This document shows, in pieces, positions 19,602 through 28,446 of a DNA stretch of 48,840 nucleotides. The stretch covers positions 26,575 through 75,414 of the forward strand of contig JADMJQ010000210.1 of NCBI GenBank assembly GCA_018780415.1, in the 5' to 3' direction. The position numbers were made by a program, and so were the translations under genes. Position 1 is the stretch's first letter; each line of letters starts with the position of its first letter. Source of the stretch: Roseateles sp. (lineage in GTDB: Bacteria; Pseudomonadota; Gammaproteobacteria; Burkholderiales; Burkholderiaceae_C). Below the pieces are notes generated by a model. It ran no database searches. It was not told where the DNA came from and was given only the letters and a program-made list of their open reading frames with translations.

Positions 19602-20186
19602 ATGCAAGCCAAACGAATACTCGTCATCAACGGCAATCCCAAGCCGGCCAGCCTCTGCCGGGCCTTGGCCGAGCGCTATGCCCAAGCCGCCGAGCAAGCG
19701 GGTCACAGCGTGGAGATCATCCAGCTGGGCGATTTGAAGTTTTTGCTCGGCCTTGAGCAGGGCTATCAGGCCGCGCAGGCGCTGGAACCCGATTTGCTGC
19801 GCTTGCAGCAGGCCGTTCTTGTGGCCGAGCATTTGGTCTGGGCCTACCCGGTCTGGTGGGGCTCGGTGCCGGCGCTGATGAAGGGCGCGCTGGACCGCCT
19901 CTTGTTGCCCGGCTTCGCCTTCAAATATCACCCCGGCAAGACCATTCCGGAGCAGCTCCTGAAGGGCCGATCGGCGCGCCTGCTGGTGTGCATGGACACG
20001 CCGCCTTGGTACTTCAGATGGTTTCAGGGCGCGCCCGCTCACCGCATGATGCGGCACACCGTGCTGGAGTTCTGCGGCATCAAACCGGTGCGCATCAGCG
20101 AGTTCGGGCCGGTTCTGCAAAGCAGCCCGGCGCAGCGCGCGCGTTGGTTAGGCAGGGTTGCCAAGTTGGGCGCTGCGGCGGCTTGA
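19602..20186 (+). CDS. Flavodoxin-fold NAD(P)H oxidoreductase (quinone reductase family)
   Basis: This 194-residue protein belongs to the Flavodoxin_2 group (MdaB, KefF, NQO-like). The FMN/FAD phosphate loop is NGNPKPASLCRAL near residue 10, and the characteristic core is VWAYPVWWGSVPALMKGALDRL with GFAFKY after it. Such enzymes reduce quinones, nitro or azo compounds with two electrons. The N-terminal phosphate loop has Pro-Lys-Pro in place of the usual His-Pro. Placement behind a MerR regulator and promoter suggests induction by an electrophile, oxidant or metal. It converges on the diguanylate cyclase gene. Confidence 0.9.
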   Translation: MQAKRILVINGNPKPASLCRALAERYAQAAEQAGHSVEIIQLGDLKFLLGLEQGYQAAQALEPDLLRLQQAVLVAEHLVWAYPVWWGSVPALMKGALDRLLLPGFAFKYHPGKTIPEQLLKGRSARLLVCMDTPPWYFRWFQGAPAHRMMRHTVLEFCGIKPVRISEFGPVLQSSPAQRARWLGRVAKLGAAAA

Positions 20187-20205
20187 TCGCTCTGCAGTGA
20201 GGGGT

Positions 20206-21855
20206 TCAGGTCAGATCGCCCATGCCGCTGATCTGAAAGCGGTTTTTGCCGTCTTGCTTGGCGCGGTACATCGCCTGGTCGGCCTGCTGCAGCAGCTGGC
20301 TCGCATCCAGCTCGAGGGCCTGGGGGTAGTAGGCGACCCCTAAGCTGGCCGAAATTTGCAGGCGCGCGCCGGCGTAGGCTACCGGCTCGGCGGCGGCGCT
20401 CAAGATGCGCTCCAGCAGCGGCTTGCAGTCGTTCGGTGTGTGCAGGTCCACCAGCAAGACGATGAACTCGTCGCCGCCCAGGCGGGCCAGCGTGTCGCCC
20501 TCGCGCAGCGTCTGCTTGATATTGTGGGCAATGCCGACCAGCAGGGCGTCGCCGCCGGCATGGCCGTGGCGGTCATTGATGGTCTTGAAGCCGTCCAGAT
20601 CCAGATAGACCAAGGCCAGCATGTCCTTGCGCCGTTTGCACTGCGACATGCCGTGCTGCAAGCGGTCATGCAGCAAGAGGCGGTTGGGCAGGCCGGTCAA
20701 AGCGTCGTGATAGGCAATGCTTTCCAGCTGCGATTCATGCTCTTTGAGGCTGGTGATGTCGGAGAACAGCGACAGGTATTGCTGGACTTGGCCCTGTGCA
20801 TCGCGCACCGCGCTGATGGTCTGCATCTCGGCATAGATTTCACCGGATTTGCGGCGGTTCCAGATTTCCCCGGTCCAGGCGCCTTGTTCCAGCAAGGCGC
20901 GCCAGAACTCGGCGTAAAAGGCCCGGTCATGGCGGCCCGAGCTGAGCAGGCGCGGGTTGCGTCCCAAGACCTCGTCGCGGCCGTAGCCGGTGATCTGTGT
21001 GAAGGTCTCGTTGACATCAAGAATGGCGCCCTGCGGGTCGGTGATCATGATGCCTTCGCGGGCATGGGTGAACACGCTGGCGGCCAGCTGAAGCTGCGCT
21101 TCGGCCTGTTTGCGCACCGCCACCTCGCGCCTGAGCTCGCTGACCAGATCAACCGCCATCGCGTCGAAATGAGCCGACAAGTCACCGAACTCGTCCGCCG
21201 TGCGGATGGCACTGCGCTGCGTCATATCGCCCTGCGAAATGGCGCTGACGGTGCGGCCAAGATGCTTCAGCGGCCTGAGTACCCGGCGGTAGAGCAGCCA
21301 GGCCAGCCCGGCCAACATCAGCAGGGTCAGCACCGGAATGGCAATCGCCAGCCGGCGCGTGCTTTGTTCAAGCTGGCGGCGGCCGCGGTCGGCCTCCTCG
21401 CCGCGCCGCTGCACCGACTCGGTCAGGACCTGGGAGTTCAGCAGCAACTGGTTCAGCAGCAAGGTGCGCCGGTGGCGCTGCAGGTCTTGCTCGGCGGTAT
21501 CTGCCGGGCCGCCTGCTGGCGCCTCATGGGCTTCCAGCAGCTGCGCGAACAGCTCGTTCAGCAGAGCGACGCTGTTGAGAGACTCGACCGCAGTCAACGG
21601 GTCGCTTTGCAGCCCCGTGACAATCTGGGCGTGCAGGGTGCGCCATTGCTGTGCCGTTCGGGCTTCACCGTGCAGCGCATATTCATGCGCCAGCACCAGC
21701 AGCTTTGACACCTGTTGCGAGCTGCGCCGAGCTTGGCTCTCCGCGCGCGCCAGTTGGGCACTCTCGGTGGCCAGGCGGCTGATGCCCGCGCCCAGGCCCA
21801 GCGTCAGCAGCAGCGCGCCGGACATGAAGGAGATCAACAGGCCGCGGATGCGCAT
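20206..21855 (-). CDS. Membrane-bound HAMP-PAS-GGDEF diguanylate cyclase
   Basis: The 549-residue protein has TM1 at about 5-27, a helical periplasmic domain (28-168), TM2 at about 169-190, HAMP (190-243), a PAS domain (255-370, VFTHAREGIMITD to SLFSDITSLKE) and a GGDEF domain from about 380. The active site GGDEF is intact at residues 460-464, and an RxxD inhibitory site is present (R451-D454), so it should synthesise c-di-GMP with product inhibition. There is no EAL domain. It starts four bases after the stop of a periplasmic binding protein gene, which suggests that the binding protein feeds the sensor domain. Confidence 0.95.
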   Translation of the reverse strand: MRIRGLLISFMSGALLLTLGLGAGISRLATESAQLARAESQARRSSQQVSKLLVLAHEYALHGEARTAQQWRTLHAQIVTGLQSDPLTAVESLNSVALLNELFAQLLEAHEAPAGGPADTAEQDLQRHRRTLLLNQLLLNSQVLTESVQRRGEEADRGRRQLEQSTRRLAIAIPVLTLLMLAGLAWLLYRRVLRPLKHLGRTVSAISQGDMTQRSAIRTADEFGDLSAHFDAMAVDLVSELRREVAVRKQAEAQLQLAASVFTHAREGIMITDPQGAILDVNETFTQITGYGRDEVLGRNPRLLSSGRHDRAFYAEFWRALLEQGAWTGEIWNRRKSGEIYAEMQTISAVRDAQGQVQQYLSLFSDITSLKEHESQLESIAYHDALTGLPNRLLLHDRLQHGMSQCKRRKDMLALVYLDLDGFKTINDRHGHAGGDALLVGIAHNIKQTLREGDTLARLGGDEFIVLLVDLHTPNDCKPLLERILSAAAEPVAYAGARLQISASLGVAYYPQALELDASQLLQQADQAMYRAKQDGKNRFQISGMGDLT

Positions 21856-21859
21856 GGGG

Positions 21860-22879
21860 CTATTCGATCAAGCCCACGCCGCTGGGCAGGGCTTTGCGCA
21901 GCGGTTTGGCATAGATCAGGTCCAGATAGTTGGGCGCGCTCGTGCCCTTGACATAGTCCTTGGCATGCCCGCCTTGGCGAGCCCAGCGCGACTCGGCCTC
22001 CAGGCTGGACAGCAGCCATTGGTCGAGGCTGATCCGGTAGTGGGTGTCGTTCCAGATCCAATCGACAAAGGCCTGGTCCAGCTTGAGGCGCTCGCGCAGC
22101 AGCTTTTGGGCCATGGCGGGCTGGGCGGCGATGAAGCGCGCCGCCCGATCCAGGGCGCGCAGGACTTTCTCGAGCTCGTCGTCACGCGCACCCAACAAGG
22201 ACTTGGCGGCGATCAAATTGAAGCTCAGCCGGTAGCTGCCGGTCGTCGGCAGAATGCTGCTGCCGGGCACCGCTTGCAAGAGCTTGAAGGGCAGCGGCTC
22301 CCAGATCGCGACCGCGTCGACCTCGCCGGTCTTCAGCAGATCGGCCATCGCCTCGGGCTGCAGATGGATGATCTGCACGGCCTTGGGGTCGACACCGCTG
22401 GCCAACAAGCTGGTGTCCAGCATGTAATGGCTGCTTGTACCCATGACGGTGCCGATGCGCCGGCCTTTGAGGTCCTTGACCTGCGTGATCTTGGTGTTAG
22501 GGCCCAACACCAGCTTGCTGTCATTGCTGCTGCTGACGAAGCTGGCCAGCAGCGCAAACTGGGGTGGGCCGAAGCTATTGAACATCACCACTGCCTCGGA
22601 GACGGTGGCCAGGTCGGCCTTGCCTTCTTGGAGCAGCTGCAGCGCACGGTGGCCGCCGACAACTTCCTGCAGTTGCAGCCGCAGACCTTCGTCGGCAAAG
22701 AAGCCCTGGCGGTCGGCCACAAAAATCGGCAGCGACAACGGTGTCATCGATAGCGCCAGGCGCAAGGGCTCGGCGGCGCTGAGCGGCTTCAGGCACAGCG
22801 CCAGCAACAGGCCGCAAAACCAGTTAGCGCCTGGCACCATCGCAGGGCGCGGATCGTTGCCGGCTTCGATGCTCGTCAT
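21860..22879 (-). CDS. NMT1/THI5-like periplasmic solute-binding protein
   Basis: The 339-residue protein has an N-terminal hydrophobic signal (WFCGLLLALCLKPLSA) and a SsuA/ThiY-type fold: LRLALSMTPLSLPIFVADRQGFF, GKADLATVSEAVVM, DLKGRRIGTVMGTSSHYML and DAVAIWEPLPFKL. Relatives bind sulfonates, taurine, thiamine precursors or nitrate; the ligand is undefined here. No ABC permease or ATPase is nearby. The start at 22879 is supported by AGGGCGGAG just upstream, although the spacing is short; an internal ATG at 22840 is possible. It lies directly upstream of the diguanylate cyclase and downstream of the TAXI-like gene. Confidence 0.9.
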   Translation of the reverse strand: MTSIEAGNDPRPAMVPGANWFCGLLLALCLKPLSAAEPLRLALSMTPLSLPIFVADRQGFFADEGLRLQLQEVVGGHRALQLLQEGKADLATVSEAVVMFNSFGPPQFALLASFVSSSNDSKLVLGPNTKITQVKDLKGRRIGTVMGTSSHYMLDTSLLASGVDPKAVQIIHLQPEAMADLLKTGEVDAVAIWEPLPFKLLQAVPGSSILPTTGSYRLSFNLIAAKSLLGARDDELEKVLRALDRAARFIAAQPAMAQKLLRERLKLDQAFVDWIWNDTHYRISLDQWLLSSLEAESRWARQGGHAKDYVKGTSAPNYLDLIYAKPLRKALPSGVGLIE

Positions 22880-22943
22880 AACTCCGCCCTAGGTTGCCCG
22901 TTGGCCTATTCTTGCATGGCCAACATGACCGCACTGCCGGCAC

Positions 22944-24329
22944 CTAGGGGGCAGGTGTTGCCAGCTTGCTGCGCACCAAGTCCACATGCTGGCGCAGGGT
23001 GTAGACCCGGTCACTGAAGTCAAGCGGAAAACGGGTGGATTGAATGTCCTGCTCGATGCGGCTCAGGCGCTCATGGGCCTGGCGGCACTCGGGTGGGCTC
23101 AAGGCGCGGGTCATCAGCTCTTGTTCCAGGAATTTCAGCTCACCGTAGTACCGGTACAGGCGCCGACTTTGGCGCCACACCCGCAGCCAGGGCAGCAGGC
23201 GAACCATGGGCAGCATCAGGGCCAGCAGTGGCAAGATCAGCAAGGCCATGCGCTGCACCAAATTCGCCAGCCAGAAGGGCAGGTAGGTTTGCAGAAAAGG
23301 CCGCCCGTTCTTGAAGTAACGGGCCGATTCCTCGGCCAGGGGAAAGTCGGTGCCTTGGGTGCTGGGGAATTCACCCGGCCGCGCCAGCAAGCTGGGTGCG
23401 CGGTGGACCTGGCGGGCCGCATCCAGCAGCAAATACGCCAGCGCCGGATGCAGGTCCTCTTGCACGACCAGATTGGTGGTGGTGGACAGCAGGTTGATGT
23501 CTTCGGCCGGGCGGTCCAGCAGGGGGCTGACCGAGCCGCGCTTCAGCACCACGGTTTGAAAGTAGGGCAGGCGTCGCGCCAGACCCTCGGCCTGGACCAG
23601 CGAGGCCAGGCGCAGGCCATCGGCGGCCAGCAGCCTTTGCACCGCCGGCGCCTGCACCGAGGCCACCAGGATGAAGGCGTCGATCTCTTGCTTGACCAGC
23701 ATCTCGGCGGCGGCCAGGCCGCCCACCGTCAGCAGCTCGGTGCCGCCCAGCGGCTGCCGCTGCGGCCCCAGCAGACCGTAGTTGCCCAGCAATTCCAGTG
23801 CGATGGCTTGATTGCCACTGCCGGCCACGCCCACGGCCACACGGCGCCCGCGCAGGGCACCCAGGCCGGCGGAGAGCTTCAGTTCGCGCGAAAAAATCCA
23901 GACCGGCTCATGCCCAATGGTGGCCAGCGAGCGCAGCGGCGTGGCCTGAGCCAGGTCGTCGTCCGCAGCCTCGAAATTGGCAATCCGGGTATGGGCGGCC
24001 GTGGCCATTGGCCCCAAGCCCCCTTGCACAAAGCCGACATCGGCCGCGCCGGCCTCCAGGCGCGCCAGGTTTTCCACCGAGCCGGTCGAGCTGCGCAGCG
24101 TCAGTGCAACGCCATGCAGCTTCAACAGGGCCTGGTACTTGAGGCCGAACTGGTGATAGGCGCCGTCTTCGCTGCCCGTCGTCATCACCAGGATTCTCGG
24201 CGGTGCGGGGCTCATTGTTGTTGCCAACAGCCAGACGGCGCTGCAGACGGCGATCAGGGCGAGGCCGACGCCGGTCCAGAAAAGCAGACTGCTGTTTGCG
24301 GCTCTGCGCGGCATGGTTGGGCTGGCCAT
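22944..24329 (-). CDS. Membrane-anchored TAXI-family solute-binding protein
   Basis: The 461-residue protein has one N-terminal membrane helix (about 12-38) instead of a cleavable signal, then a TAXI-type binding domain (about 45-340, ILVMTTGSEDGAYHQFG, STGSVENLARLEAGAADVGF and VAVGVAGSGNQAIALELLG). A C-terminal membrane segment (WLANLVQRMALLILPLLALML) is followed by a basic, helical tail with RLYRYYGELKFLEQELMTR. TAXI proteins normally serve TRAP transporters, yet no TRAP permease is present. The cytoplasmic tail suggests a signalling or scaffold role. The ATG at 24329 is preferred over an upstream frame that runs into the channel gene. Confidence 0.85.
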   Translation of the reverse strand: MASPTMPRRAANSSLLFWTGVGLALIAVCSAVWLLATTMSPAPPRILVMTTGSEDGAYHQFGLKYQALLKLHGVALTLRSSTGSVENLARLEAGAADVGFVQGGLGPMATAAHTRIANFEAADDDLAQATPLRSLATIGHEPVWIFSRELKLSAGLGALRGRRVAVGVAGSGNQAIALELLGNYGLLGPQRQPLGGTELLTVGGLAAAEMLVKQEIDAFILVASVQAPAVQRLLAADGLRLASLVQAEGLARRLPYFQTVVLKRGSVSPLLDRPAEDINLLSTTTNLVVQEDLHPALAYLLLDAARQVHRAPSLLARPGEFPSTQGTDFPLAEESARYFKNGRPFLQTYLPFWLANLVQRMALLILPLLALMLPMVRLLPWLRVWRQSRRLYRYYGELKFLEQELMTRALSPPECRQAHERLSRIEQDIQSTRFPLDFSDRVYTLRQHVDLVRSKLATPAP

Positions 24330-24351
24330 CTTGAAGCCTGGATCGTCGTCA

Positions 24352-25260
24352 TCAGTCACGTTGATACTCGGGCAGCGGCGCGCCGCAGTGGCGGCAGAAA
24401 TGTGAGTCGGCCTGCAGGCCTTCGCGCAGGCAGGCGTGGCAGCTGCGGGTGGTCGGCGACGCCGTCTCACCGATGCGCTGGGCCGCCATTTCGGCCGTCA
24501 TGATGCCGGTCGGCACGGCCAGCACCCCCCAACCGAGCAGCATCATGAGCGAGGCAATCGCGCGGCCCAGATCGGTCTTGGGTGTGATGTCACCAAAGCC
24601 CACCGTCGTTACCGTGGAGATCGCCCAGTACACGCTGACCGGGATGCTGGTGAAGCCGTTTTCCGGTCCTTCGACCACATACATCACCGTGCCCATGATC
24701 AGCACAATCATCAACACCGCCGACAAGAACACCAAGATCTTGCTGGCGCTGGCGCGCAGCGCCCGCCCCAGGCTGAGATAGGCCGCGACATAGTTGTTGA
24801 GCTTCAGGATCCGGAACACCCGCAGCAAGCGCAACACCCGTACATCGACCAGCGCGTACAGATCGGGGAAGAAGAAGGCCAGATAGATCGGCAACACGGC
24901 GAGCAGATCGACGATGCCAAAAAAACTGGTGGCATAGGCCAAGGGCCGGCGCACGCAGATCAAGCGCAGCAGGTACTCCGCCGTGAAGAGGGCGGTGAAC
25001 GCGTATTCCGCCCAGCTCAACCAGGTCTTGTGCGCCTCTCTGAAGCTGGCCACGCTCTCCAGCATCACCAAGGCCAGGCTGAGCAGCACGGCCACGATCA
25101 AAGCCAGATCGAAGCGTCGCCCGGCCCGGGTGTCGGCCTCAAAGATGATGGTGTAGGCCCGCAGGCGCCAGCCTTGTAGCGGTCGGCCGAAGGCGGCGGT
25201 GGCCGCCGCCGGCCTGCCTGGTTTGTTTGCTGCCGTTGCTTGGCGCGTCGGATTGCTCAT
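24352..25260 (-). CDS. Six-TM voltage-gated-like potassium channel with C-terminal zinc ribbon
   Basis: The 302-residue ion-transport protein has helices S1-S6. S4 carries regularly spaced Arg (RVLRLLRVFRILKL, residues 141-154). The pore has filter TVGFGD (219-224) in a TVTTVGFGDITP context, which indicates K+ selectivity. After S6 the cytosolic tail has two CxxC pairs (C274/C277 and C289/C292, with a His between), a zinc-ribbon-like module of about 25 residues. The ATG at 25260 is chosen over an upstream frame. It opens a leftward gene group: TAXI protein after 22 bases, binding protein, cyclase. Confidence 0.92.
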   Translation of the reverse strand: MSNPTRQATAANKPGRPAAATAAFGRPLQGWRLRAYTIIFEADTRAGRRFDLALIVAVLLSLALVMLESVASFREAHKTWLSWAEYAFTALFTAEYLLRLICVRRPLAYATSFFGIVDLLAVLPIYLAFFFPDLYALVDVRVLRLLRVFRILKLNNYVAAYLSLGRALRASASKILVFLSAVLMIVLIMGTVMYVVEGPENGFTSIPVSVYWAISTVTTVGFGDITPKTDLGRAIASLMMLLGWGVLAVPTGIMTAEMAAQRIGETASPTTRSCHACLREGLQADSHFCRHCGAPLPEYQRD

Positions 25261-25441
25261 GGGGGTGAAGCGTAACCGAGCGCACACCGGGTCAGACGCA
25301 AGTCGTGGCAGCGCTGCGCTTGTTGGGATGGACGGCGGTTTTACGGCGATCAAGTTCGTGGCGCCGGCGCAGCACCCGCAGTAGGATCAAGTAGAGCCGT
25401 CGCCGCAATTCCGCACCGCGTCGCTCGAGCAAGGAGCCGCC

Positions 25442-26623
25442 ATGAAGTCCTGGAGCCGCTCAATCACCAGCTTGCTGCTGAGTCTGACCTTGTCTTTCTC
25501 ACTGTTCGGCTGCGCCACCGCGCCGCCGGTGCCGGTGCCGGTGCAGCTGTTCCACGATGCCTTGTTCAAGCCCGCGGCGCAGGACCTCAGCGCCGAGCAG
25601 GTGTTCGCCCTCAGCCCGGCGATGCAGGACTATCTGGACTTCGGCATGCGCGCACAGCTGCGCAACAAGGGCAGCCGCCAGGGCCTGCTGGATGCGCTGT
25701 ACAACAAAAGCGCCCTGCAACTCGAGTACGACTCGGGCGACACCCGCACCGCCGCCCAAGCCTTCGCCGACCGGCGCGGCAACTGCCTGTCCTTGGTCAT
25801 CATGACGGCGGCCTTTGCCAAGCAGCTGGGCCTGCCGGTGCGCTATCAAAGCGTCTATGTGGATGAGCTGTGGAGCCGCAGCGGCGATCTGTACTTCCTC
25901 AGCGGCCATGTCAATCTGAGCCTGGGCCGCAGCCTGTCCGAGAGCCGCGATTCGGCCGGTGACAGCGCGATGCTGACGGTCGATTTTCTGCGCCAGCCGC
26001 CGGGCAGCCGCCAGCGCGCCCAGGTGATCGAGGAGCACACCATCGTGGCCATGTTCATGAATAACCGGGCCGCCGAGAACCTGCAGGCGGGCCGTATAGA
26101 CGCGGCCTATTGGTGGGCGCGCGCCGCCTTGGTGGCCGATCCCAAGCTGCTGGCCGCCTACAACACGCTGGGCGTGATCTACCGCCGCCATGGCGATCTG
26201 GGCCTGGCCGAGCCGGCGCTGCGCCATGTTTTGGCCGAGGAGCCCGGCAACACCCAGGCGATGTCGAATCTGGTGTTGCTGCTGAAGGAATCAGGGCGGC
26301 TGGCCGAAGCGACGCAATTTGCTCAGCTGCTCGCGCAACTGCAGCCCTATCCGCCCTACAAGTTTTTTGACTTGGGGCTGGCGGCGATGCAGGCGGGTGA
26401 CTATCAAGCGGCCAAGGACTGGTTCAGCAAGGAGATCGCCCGGTCGGCCTATGTGCACGAGTTCCATTTTGGCTTGGCGCTGGCGAACTACGGCCTGGGC
26501 GACCTGGTGGCGGCCCGCCGCCAGCTCTATTTGGCGCTGGAAAACAGCAATACCCAGCAGGATCGCCAGCTCTACACCAGCAAACTGGACTTGCTGAGGC
26601 TGCGCCAAACACCGTTGCGCTGA
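25442..26623 (+). CDS. Lipoprotein with transglutaminase-like and TPR domains
   Basis: The 393-residue protein has a lipoprotein signal peptide with lipobox LFGC (Cys24). Next comes a transglutaminase-like/predicted protease module (RRGNCLSLVIMTAAFAKQLG with Cys115, then GHVNLSL with His156). From about residue 200 to the end there are several TPR units (AAYNTLGVIYRRHGDLGLAEPALRH, FFDLGLAAMQAGDYQAAKDW). The start has a strong AAGGAG site at 25431-25436. It is probably anchored in the outer membrane facing the periplasm. The catalytic acid is not obvious, so activity is uncertain. Divergent from the channel gene across 181 bases. Confidence 0.85.
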   Translation: MKSWSRSITSLLLSLTLSFSLFGCATAPPVPVPVQLFHDALFKPAAQDLSAEQVFALSPAMQDYLDFGMRAQLRNKGSRQGLLDALYNKSALQLEYDSGDTRTAAQAFADRRGNCLSLVIMTAAFAKQLGLPVRYQSVYVDELWSRSGDLYFLSGHVNLSLGRSLSESRDSAGDSAMLTVDFLRQPPGSRQRAQVIEEHTIVAMFMNNRAAENLQAGRIDAAYWWARAALVADPKLLAAYNTLGVIYRRHGDLGLAEPALRHVLAEEPGNTQAMSNLVLLLKESGRLAEATQFAQLLAQLQPYPPYKFFDLGLAAMQAGDYQAAKDWFSKEIARSAYVHEFHFGLALANYGLGDLVAARRQLYLALENSNTQQDRQLYTSKLDLLRLRQTPLR

Positions 26624-26648: not shown

Positions 26649-26975
26649 CTACAGCGGCGCCAGCCCATGCCGAGCGCGCGCCCGGGCGCAGGCCTCATCA
26701 CCAATACCCAGCGGGGCGCGCAGCCCGAACTCTCGGCAAGGCGCCGGCCGCCATTCATAGATGCCGCAGCCGGCCTGCACGCCCACCGTGCCGACCAAGG
26801 CCGCGCAGCGGGGCGCCAGATGGTCGGTGCCACGCATCCGGCAAAGGCGGGCGTTCAACTCGACCGTCAGGCCGTCCGGCACGCAGCCGCCCTCGCTTTG
26901 CAACTCGTCAACGGCGAAATCGACCCGAAAGCTGGCGCAGCAGGCGCCGCAACTCAAACAGGGGTTGGCGGACAT
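26649..26975 (-). CDS. YkgJ-family cysteine cluster protein
   Basis: A 108-residue protein with eight or more Cys in the CxxCxxC pattern: NPCLSCGACCASF at the N-terminus, then RCAAL, GCGIYEWRPAPCREF. This is the CxxCxxCC-type metal-binding fold (YkgJ/UPF0153) thought to bind zinc or an iron-sulfur cluster, with no established function. It follows the kinase gene with a single intervening base, so it belongs to the same operon. It converges on the lipoprotein gene. Confidence 0.88.
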   Translation of the reverse strand: MSANPCLSCGACCASFRVDFAVDELQSEGGCVPDGLTVELNARLCRMRGTDHLAPRCAALVGTVGVQAGCGIYEWRPAPCREFGLRAPLGIGDEACARARARHGLAPL

Positions 26976-26976
26976 A

Positions 26977-28446
26977 TCAAATGGCGCGCGCCACGTCGCG
27001 CACCACCGTCACGGTGCAGGCCGACTGCGTCACCACCTCGGCCGAGACGCTGCCCAGATAGCGCCGCAGGGTCGAGGCGCGGCGCGCGCCCATCACGATA
27101 TGGTCGGTGCCACTTTTGGCGGCAAATTCCAGGATGGCGGCCGCGGCGTCGGGCGCTTCCAGCACATGAAAGGTCAGGCGCCCGTCGCCCAATTCCAGCG
27201 CACGGCTGATCGGCCGGGCCCAGGCCTTGAGCGCAATCAGCTGCTTCACATGGACGCTTTTGCCTTCCTTGTCGGTCAACTCATCCATGCCGATGCGGTG
27301 GGTCTTCATCACGCTGACGCAGGCCAGGCGTGCGCCGGGCTCGGCCTGCACGATACGCCGCACCGTTTCGCATAATTTTTCCAGCAAGGCCGGCGTGGCG
27401 TGTTGCACGTCGATGGCCGCCATGATGATGGGGCTGCGCGCCAATTGAGCGGCGACACTGGTCTGCGCTGCCGGCTCGGCGCCGAGCGCAAAAAACCAGC
27501 GCTTGAGGCGCTTCAGCAGGCCGCTGCCGCTGAGTTTTTCGCTGCGTTTGGTCAGCGGCACCAGCTCCGGTTGCTGCAAATCAAGCGCCAGTTGCGCGGC
27601 ACTTTGATAGCGCCGCTCGGCCTTGACCTCCAGGCAGTGCAGTACGATTTCTTGAAACCACGGTGGCAAATCGGGCTTGATCGCGCGCGGCGGCACCGGC
27701 TCCACATAGAGCCGGCGGCGCAGGCCGCGCACCGAGGAAGGCTGGCCGAAGGGCCGCTCGCCGGTCGCCAGGTGGTAGAGCATCACGCCCAGCGCAAACA
27801 GATCGCTGCGCGGGTCATTGCGGACAAACTGCACCTGCTCGGGCGACATATAGGGCCCGGTGCCCATGGGCAGCGAGAACTCCTCCTCCAGTAGGTCGGG
27901 CAAATGGTCATGGCGCGATAGGCCAAAGTCCACTAGCACCGCCGCGCCATTCGGGCGGAACATGATGTTGCTGGGCTTGACGTCCAGATGCACCACATGC
28001 TGCAGGTGCAGGTCCTGCAGCGCCAGCGCCACCTTGATGCCGATCTCGACCACTTCGTCCAAGGGCAGCGGGGCGTCGTCGAAGCGGGGCCGCAGCGATG
28101 CCCCGCCAATCCGTTCCATCACGATATAGGCCTGGCGTGTCCAGTCGCCGCGGGCCACAAACTTGGGCACATGCGGGCCCTTCAAGGCCGGCATCAGCAT
28201 CTGCTCGGTCTCGAAGCCGACTATTGTGGCGGGGTCCTCGCCGCCCTTGATGCGCGGCACTTTCATGATCAGCGGGAAGTCCTCGCCGGCCAGCGGCTCG
28301 ACCCGGGTCACGCGCCATAAATTGGCCATGCCGCCTTGATGCAGGCGCTCATCCAGTCGAAAACCGTCCAGCACCAGACCGGGCTCGAGTGTGCCAATCG
28401 GTGGAAACAGGGTGCTGGCGCCGCCGAACGTGGACTCAGCGCTCAT
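26977..28446 (-). CDS. Ser/Thr protein kinase fused to universal stress protein domain
   Basis: The 489-residue protein has a Hanks-type kinase domain (about 25-290) with Gly-rich loop HQGGMANLW, ATP-Lys62 in LIMKVP, catalytic HLDVKPSN (Asp155), DFG (173-175) and SPEQ activation end. A basic linker leads to a UspA domain (about 338-485) with IIMAAIDVQHATPALLEKL at the start and MGARRASTLRRYLGSVSAEV, the G-x2-G-x9-G(S/T)-type ATP loop in altered form (its second Gly is replaced by Ala or Ser). The HRD Arg is Leu, so phosphorylation-dependent activation may be absent. It lies between a metallophosphoesterase gene and a Cys-cluster gene with one-base gaps. Confidence 0.93.
   Translation of the reverse strand: MSAESTFGGASTLFPPIGTLEPGLVLDGFRLDERLHQGGMANLWRVTRVEPLAGEDFPLIMKVPRIKGGEDPATIVGFETEQMLMPALKGPHVPKFVARGDWTRQAYIVMERIGGASLRPRFDDAPLPLDEVVEIGIKVALALQDLHLQHVVHLDVKPSNIMFRPNGAAVLVDFGLSRHDHLPDLLEEEFSLPMGTGPYMSPEQVQFVRNDPRSDLFALGVMLYHLATGERPFGQPSSVRGLRRRLYVEPVPPRAIKPDLPPWFQEIVLHCLEVKAERRYQSAAQLALDLQQPELVPLTKRSEKLSGSGLLKRLKRWFFALGAEPAAQTSVAAQLARSPIIMAAIDVQHATPALLEKLCETVRRIVQAEPGARLACVSVMKTHRIGMDELTDKEGKSVHVKQLIALKAWARPISRALELGDGRLTFHVLEAPDAAAAILEFAAKSGTDHIVMGARRASTLRRYLGSVSAEVVTQSACTVTVVRDVARAI

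Follow-up and report, generated by a model that had tools for sequence, protein, structure and literature searches.

Gene content of the locus

We analyzed a 48,840-nt stretch (here called the window) of contig JADMJQ010000210.1 from the Roseateles sp. assembly GCA_018780415.1, a genome of 5.43 Mb in 356 contigs that is 93% complete (G000), and focused on a row of four minus-strand genes that encode a voltage-gated K+-channel-like protein, a TAXI-type binding protein, an NMT1-type binding protein, and a diguanylate cyclase. A preliminary description made from the sequence alone had given the gaps between these genes as 22, 64, and 4 bases, and the open reading frame (ORF) coordinates with ATG starts confirm this spacing; longer ORFs with GTG or TTG starts exist for the TAXI and channel genes. 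The features are as follows.

20206..21855, minus strand: diguanylate cyclase, 549 amino acids (from ORF, Pfam, motif, and hydropathy)
21328..21774, minus strand: sensor domain (profile A7), cyclase residues 28 to 176 (from profile and predicted four-helix bundle)
21860..22879, minus strand: NMT1/SsuA-type binding protein, 339 amino acids, proposed ligand-binding subunit of the cyclase (from Pfam and NCBIfam)
22944..24329, minus strand: TAXI-type binding protein, 461 amino acids, with a hydrophobic anchor near each terminus and a conserved tail at the C-terminal end
24352..25260, minus strand: voltage-gated K+-channel-like protein with a zinc-ribbon-like tail, 302 amino acids, proposed to be a bystander and resident of the locus

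The cyclase has a transmembrane (TM) segment at residues 7 to 25, a periplasmic helical domain at about residues 28 to 168, and a second TM segment (TM2) at residues 169 to 187, followed by HAMP (187 to 237; Pfam, 8.2e-11), PAS (about 262 to 371; PAS_9, 3.7e-18), and GGDEF (381 to 539; 1.3e-47) domains. The HAMP-PAS-GGDEF architecture described earlier is borne out. The protein holds the stretch REGDTLARLGGDEF, in which both the GGDEF motif and, five residues before it, the RxxD site are intact; they are invariant in six orthologues. Judged by its sequence, the protein has the motifs expected of an active diguanylate cyclase; Pfam matched no EAL domain in it.

The periplasmic domain falls outside the sensor families of Pfam: HAMP was matched by all 31 sensors compared, none of the 31 matched a Pfam periplasmic sensor family, and HAMP_2, UPF0147, and DUF2207_C were each matched by one sensor (E, 0.005 to 0.009). 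Residues L52, L55, R66, Q70, W71, and F103 are near invariant. A full-length model of the cyclase (predicted template modeling score [pTM], 0.32) was set aside in favor of a sensor-only model built from 31 sequences (predicted local distance difference test score [pLDDT], 88; pTM, 0.65), in which the domain is predicted to form a four-helix bundle (helices at residues 2 to 62, 65 to 84, 90 to 110, and 120 to 207) that continues into the TM helices. A Foldseek search of this model against the PDB returned nothing under an E value of 0.001; the best matches were NarQ fragments (0.0035), and LytS of the XylFII-LytS complex came sixth (E, 0.022; template modeling score, 0.60 by target).

The NMT1 protein begins with a hydrophobic segment that we read as a signal peptide, and its Pfam match (NMT1, 8.1e-27) upholds the earlier assignment to NMT1/THI5-like binding proteins; the best NCBIfam model, SsuA_fam, was below its cutoff. 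No ligand can be named for it, because its PDB relatives, which are sulfonate-, taurine-, nitrate-, and THI5-type proteins, are too broad a group. A second NMT1 match in the same genome is weak (39% over 70 residues). It had also been remarked that no permease, ATPase, or TRAP subunit is present, and in agreement with this, the ten genes scanned between 17061 and 28446, the part of the window to which annotation was confined, matched no ABC permease or ATPase family. The protein thus shares its sequence family with SsuA, TauA, and THI5-type binding proteins but differs from them in being paired with a sensor, with no permease or ATPase match in the flanking genes scanned. A promoter scan of 19900 to 25600 found none, compared with 0.6 expected in shuffled sequence, a chance level that is itself below 1.

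Linkage of binding protein and sensor domain across genomes

The two genes were followed into other genomes from both sides. The search from the sensor side used a profile of cyclase residues 28 to 176, without HAMP, made from 25 rows. The domain is carried by at least 8 of 369 genomes of the class and at least 34 of 399 genomes of the family, the window's own included; these are lower bounds, because 9 to 10 candidates per genome were scored. The matches fall at 47 distinct places, again with the window included, and 46 of them are immediately preceded, on the same strand, by a gene for a binding protein of the NMT1 protein's family; the 47 are not all independent, since at least 7 had served as rows of the search profile. 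As a control, we took 24 ORFs with a GGDEF or kinase domain and no sensor match, some of them at the same place. Such an upstream gene was missing from 20 of these, and the other 4, which represent three distinct loci (L093 and L038 are the same place), proved to be divergent copies of the same pair.

From the binding-protein side, a six-sequence NMT1 alignment was scanned against a collection of species genomes, giving 79 loci (best 80 of 83 matches kept). At 24 of the 25 best loci (L118 to L142, five of which belong to the Paucibacter genomes counted further below), a partner that matches a sensor, GGDEF, or kinase domain starts between −12 and +25 nt from the NMT1 stop codon, although at L127 the partner leaves the contig before its output domain; in some relatives the gap between the binding protein's stop codon and the partner is 3 nt and in frame. 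The hosts of these 24 include Geobacteraceae, Gallionellaceae, Pseudomonas, Rhodoferax, Ideonella, and metagenome-assembled genomes of Spirochaetes and Parcubacteria. For the other 54 loci (L143 to L196), the matches listed immediately downstream on the same strand include no GGDEF, kinase, or sensor domain; receiver-domain genes occur at L171 and L176, more than 3 kb farther on.

The output domains behind similar binding proteins vary and comprise HAMP-PAS-kinase, kinase-receiver, GGDEF alone, PAS-GGDEF, and PAS-GGDEF-EAL arrangements. Even binding proteins that are 48 to 54% identical to the window's have kinase partners at four loci (L122 to L125) and GGDEF or GGDEF-EAL partners at three others (L126, L129, and L131). 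The number of binding proteins varies as well: two NMT1-type proteins flank one cyclase gene at L133, L135, L136, and L138, and tandem binding protein genes precede the cyclase at L037. The partners at the four loci with flanking genes have a GGDEF domain match and, by pattern search, no GG[DE]EF motif; they are possibly degenerate cyclases.

A candidate binding-protein-dependent receptor

From this genomic pairing, we consider it likely that the NMT1 protein is a dedicated periplasmic ligand-binding subunit of the cyclase that docks on its sensor domain, and the two proteins probably act as one receptor. We infer docking, ligand dependence, and the direction of that dependence as follows. The NMT1 protein, either ligand loaded or empty, would dock on the four-helix periplasmic bundle; the resulting shift would reach the GGDEF domain by way of TM2, HAMP, and PAS; and this domain would respond with altered synthesis of cyclic di-GMP (c-di-GMP), turned either on or off. 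The channel and the TAXI protein would be neighbors at the locus, outside the receptor. The genomic evidence supports the earlier proposal of a sensory module in one part, the action of the NMT1 protein on the periplasmic domain of the cyclase, and does not support it in another, the membership of the channel, which also occurs where the pair was not found. Docking on the bundle is plausible because LytS, whose bundle carries its binding protein, is among the matches of the sensor model.

Two further comparisons are consistent with such a receptor. Distances between binding proteins correlate with distances between the first 245 residues of their partners (r = 0.90; 32 pairs), and none of 2,000 permutations was as high (maximum, 0.42). 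In a tree of 91 rows, the label "sensor-linked" changes 3 times compared with 28.5 times in shuffles; none of the 200 bootstrap trees (0%) recovers the sensor-linked loci as a single clade, and the deep joins are unsure because of long branches. Several points weigh against our interpretation. Both comparisons are confounded by shared ancestry, and the region used for the correlation includes TM segments and HAMP. The pairing has an exception on each side: the binding protein at L140 lacks a partner, and a tblastn search of the 1.5 kb upstream of the sensor at L213 detected no binding protein. In addition, the sensor search scored a limited number of candidates per genome. Finally, the fold match to LytS is weak, lying among PDB matches none of which is under 0.001, and four-helix bundles are common.

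The control of kinases, chemoreceptors, and c-di-GMP enzymes by binding proteins is accepted (PMC9602780 and PMC11113362). One of the closest known systems is NspS-MbaA, the polyamine receptor of Vibrio cholerae, in which a periplasmic binding protein likewise governs a membrane GGDEF protein (PMC8967002). NspS, however, binds polyamine, whereas the binder described here is NMT1/SsuA-like (best Pfam match, NMT1), and MbaA is a GGDEF-EAL protein, whereas the window cyclase is without EAL and relatives at L126, L131, and L134 have it. In the xylose receptor XylFII-LytS of Clostridium beijerinckii, the binding protein docks at helices H3 and H4 of a periplasmic four-helix bundle (PMC9769921), and the sensor described here is predicted to be a bundle of this kind; LytS is a kinase and XylFII senses xylose, and the likeness consists of the weak fold match, with no common sequence family shown. 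A third parallel is the actinobacterial GlnH-GlnX, where the proposed target of the binding protein is a membrane protein with four-helix bundles in the periplasm (PMC9769921), although the output there is the kinase PknG, the bundles are in tandem, and GlnH belongs to SBP_bac_3.

The locus has the gene arrangement of a binding-protein-dependent c-di-GMP receptor in general, namely, a binding protein gene adjoining that for a membrane-spanning GGDEF protein with a domain in the periplasm, and this arrangement is conserved beyond the genus. No publication on an NMT1-type binder together with a GGDEF protein was found among the titles and abstract openings listed or by a word search, in a literature collection that excluded most subscription papers. 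A 2022 review, in the part on periplasmic-binding-protein-clan domains of GGDEF, EAL, and HD-GYP proteins, names SBP_bac_3 as the sole one studied in c-di-GMP networks (PMC8846402).

The signal is known for few c-di-GMP enzymes. Because the binding protein here is separate from the sensor, the ligand of the binding protein could be screened for in vitro. At least three kinds of output are found behind this sensor domain, and the pairing rule supplies testable partners at 46 places.

Neighboring genes and alternative explanations

We compared the row among 18 Paucibacter genomes, the window's own included. NMT1 orthologues occur in 6 of the 18 (the other five are 61 to 75% identical to the window's), and in all six genomes that have the NMT1-cyclase pair (G000, G002, G004, G005, G006, and G012) the channel, TAXI, NMT1, and cyclase genes stand in the same order and on the same strand. 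The order is therefore conserved rather than peculiar to one strain, and the grouping exceeds chance. The six genomes are probably one clade, as channel identity is 84 to 89% among them compared with 77% or less elsewhere. Two of the six, G006 and G012, have a gap of about 1.6 kb between TAXI and NMT1 in which an opposite-strand amidohydrolase gene lies (L120:5264-6664 and L121:5284-6678), so in these two genomes the four genes cannot be one simple operon. Divergent NMT1-sensor pairs are found at other sites in G009, G013, and G016.

The channel has the features of a voltage-gated K+ channel, with an Ion_trans fold (Pfam, 7.8e-35), a TVGFGD filter, and S4 arginines; the S4 pattern RxxRxxRxxR and the CxxC-x11-CxxC tail are both kept in 17 of 17 channel proteins from inside and outside the genus, which had been selected by the K+ filter motif. 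The earlier reading of a six-TM K+ channel with a zinc-ribbon tail is upheld by the Ion_trans match, the filter, and the cysteine pattern and is incomplete in two respects: a hydropathy scan detected four of the six TM segments, the six being inferred from the Ion_trans match, and the tail had no match over Pfam cutoffs. Channel orthologues (63 to 77% identity) are also present in nine Paucibacter genomes in which no pair was detected (G001, G003, G007 to G011, G014, and G015), of which two, G001 and G014, have a completeness of 76% and 79%, respectively.

In the six genomes with the row, the TAXI-NMT1-cyclase block sits between the channel gene and an RDD gene, with a flavodoxin-like gene additionally present in that interval in three (the window, L032, and L035). 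In G003, G007, G009, and G015, the interval is occupied by genes read as MetN, MetI, and MetQ; for 6 of these 12 genes compared with NCBIfam, a Met family was always the best match, with 1 of the 6 over its cutoff, and all three G007 genes were over the cutoff for the expected Pfam domains. We read this pattern as suggesting that the channel locus may be older and that the TAXI-NMT1-cyclase block may have arrived beside it or been kept there. Outside Paucibacter, neither a channel nor a TAXI match was found near the pair at L118 to L142, with flanks of up to 7 kb and many contigs shorter than that. The suggestion that the channel takes part in the same response thus finds no support in its distribution; the channel looks like an old neighbor of the pair and not a partner, and TAXI, by the same comparison of sequences, appears dispensable for the pair elsewhere.

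The TAXI protein matches Pfam NMT1_3 (3.2e-20) and NCBIfam TRAP_TAXI (3.4e-21; 75.4 bits, below the cutoff of 84.35), and hydrophobic segments at residues 21 to 39 and 361 to 379 agree with the earlier statement that it is anchored at both ends. It may be cotranscribed with the channel. Weaker relatives are spread across the order, with matches at an E value of 0.001 or better in 55 of 99 genomes; among the matches listed, all relatives above 130 bits reach residue 454 or beyond and so span the C-terminal tail. Two-anchor TAXI proteins with a conserved tail (in most, YTLR.H...VR close to the terminus) are widespread in Burkholderiales; in the regions L109 to L115 and L117, the TAXI neighbors were judged by eye.

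A role for TAXI as a component of a TRAP or GltS transporter was considered and is not supported. TRAP_fused was over its cutoff in 3 of the 18 genus genomes, none of them among the six, in keeping with the earlier expectation that the binding proteins would not match TRAP subunits encoded elsewhere; sub-cutoff matches in all 18, including one at G000:C258:19459-19920 that lies about 7 kb ahead of the window, are probably other TRAP-like permeases. GltS is the partner proposed for a Bordetella TAXI protein, BP0403, which likewise occurs without a TRAP permease (PMC12344293). That protein is a lipoprotein with extra N-terminal domains, whereas the one described here has a TM-TAXI-TM-tail layout, and GltS was not found in G000, G005, and G012 but is present in G002, G004, and G006.

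The broadest alternative describes an unnamed class of receptors, in which an NMT1-type binder and a Pfam-unclassified four-helix sensor form a fixed input to interchangeable outputs (c-di-GMP synthesis, synthesis and degradation, or phosphorelay) and in which an anchored TAXI protein was added in this clade as a further input to the same cyclase; taken as a whole, we regard it as unlikely. Its last element can be put on its own, with TAXI as a second, membrane-anchored input to the cyclase that was acquired in one Paucibacter clade. Such a role would fit the occurrence of TAXI at 70 to 81% identity in the same six pair-bearing genomes only, among the genus genomes searched, as well as the lack, in these six, of a TRAP_fused match over its cutoff, the failure to find GltS in three of them, and the strong conservation of its C-terminal tail. 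But the co-occurrence may reflect a single event, since the six genomes are probably one clade; relatives at 27 to 59% identity had no channel, NMT1, or cyclase match in eight of eight regions outside the row (L109 to L115 and L117); and the row is split in two genomes. We therefore hold a second input of this kind to be quite improbable.

Alternatively, the NMT1 protein might be an uptake protein that borrows an ABC permease encoded elsewhere, its site beside the cyclase being a regulatory convenience. NMT1 proteins usually serve ABC importers, an ABC ATPase match was found at 22 of the 54 more distant loci (single-sequence queries), and the search for ABC permeases in the window genome covered the ten genes around the row, which leaves room for a borrowed one. 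Against this, a single one of the 25 close loci, L137, has an ABC ATPase match, about 4 kb away, and the other 24, of which many are on short contigs, have none; moreover, the link is to the sensor domain while outputs are swapped. We give this explanation little credence and prefer the NMT1 protein as a subunit of the cyclase.

Least probable of all is a four-gene sensory module in which the two binding proteins each act on the cyclase and the channel shifts the membrane potential in the same response. Such an operon-wide function was rejected as the main reading, since the channel is also found where the pair is not and the row is interrupted in two genomes: the kept order and strand in all six pair-bearing genomes and the short gaps in the window favor it, but the nine channel orthologues without a detected pair, the Met genes in the channel-RDD interval of four of those genomes, the lack of channel or TAXI matches near the pair outside Paucibacter, and the intervening amidohydrolase gene all speak against it.

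Two genes farther along the window may be mentioned. Positions 26649 to 26975 encode a cysteine-rich protein of 108 amino acids that is 92 to 96% identical in three relatives and for which, at the thresholds applied, neither Pfam nor NCBIfam gave a match. Positions 26977 to 28446 encode, in one gene, a protein kinase domain and a C-terminal region with a weak universal-stress-protein-like match (UspF model; E, 2.2e-4, far below the cutoff).

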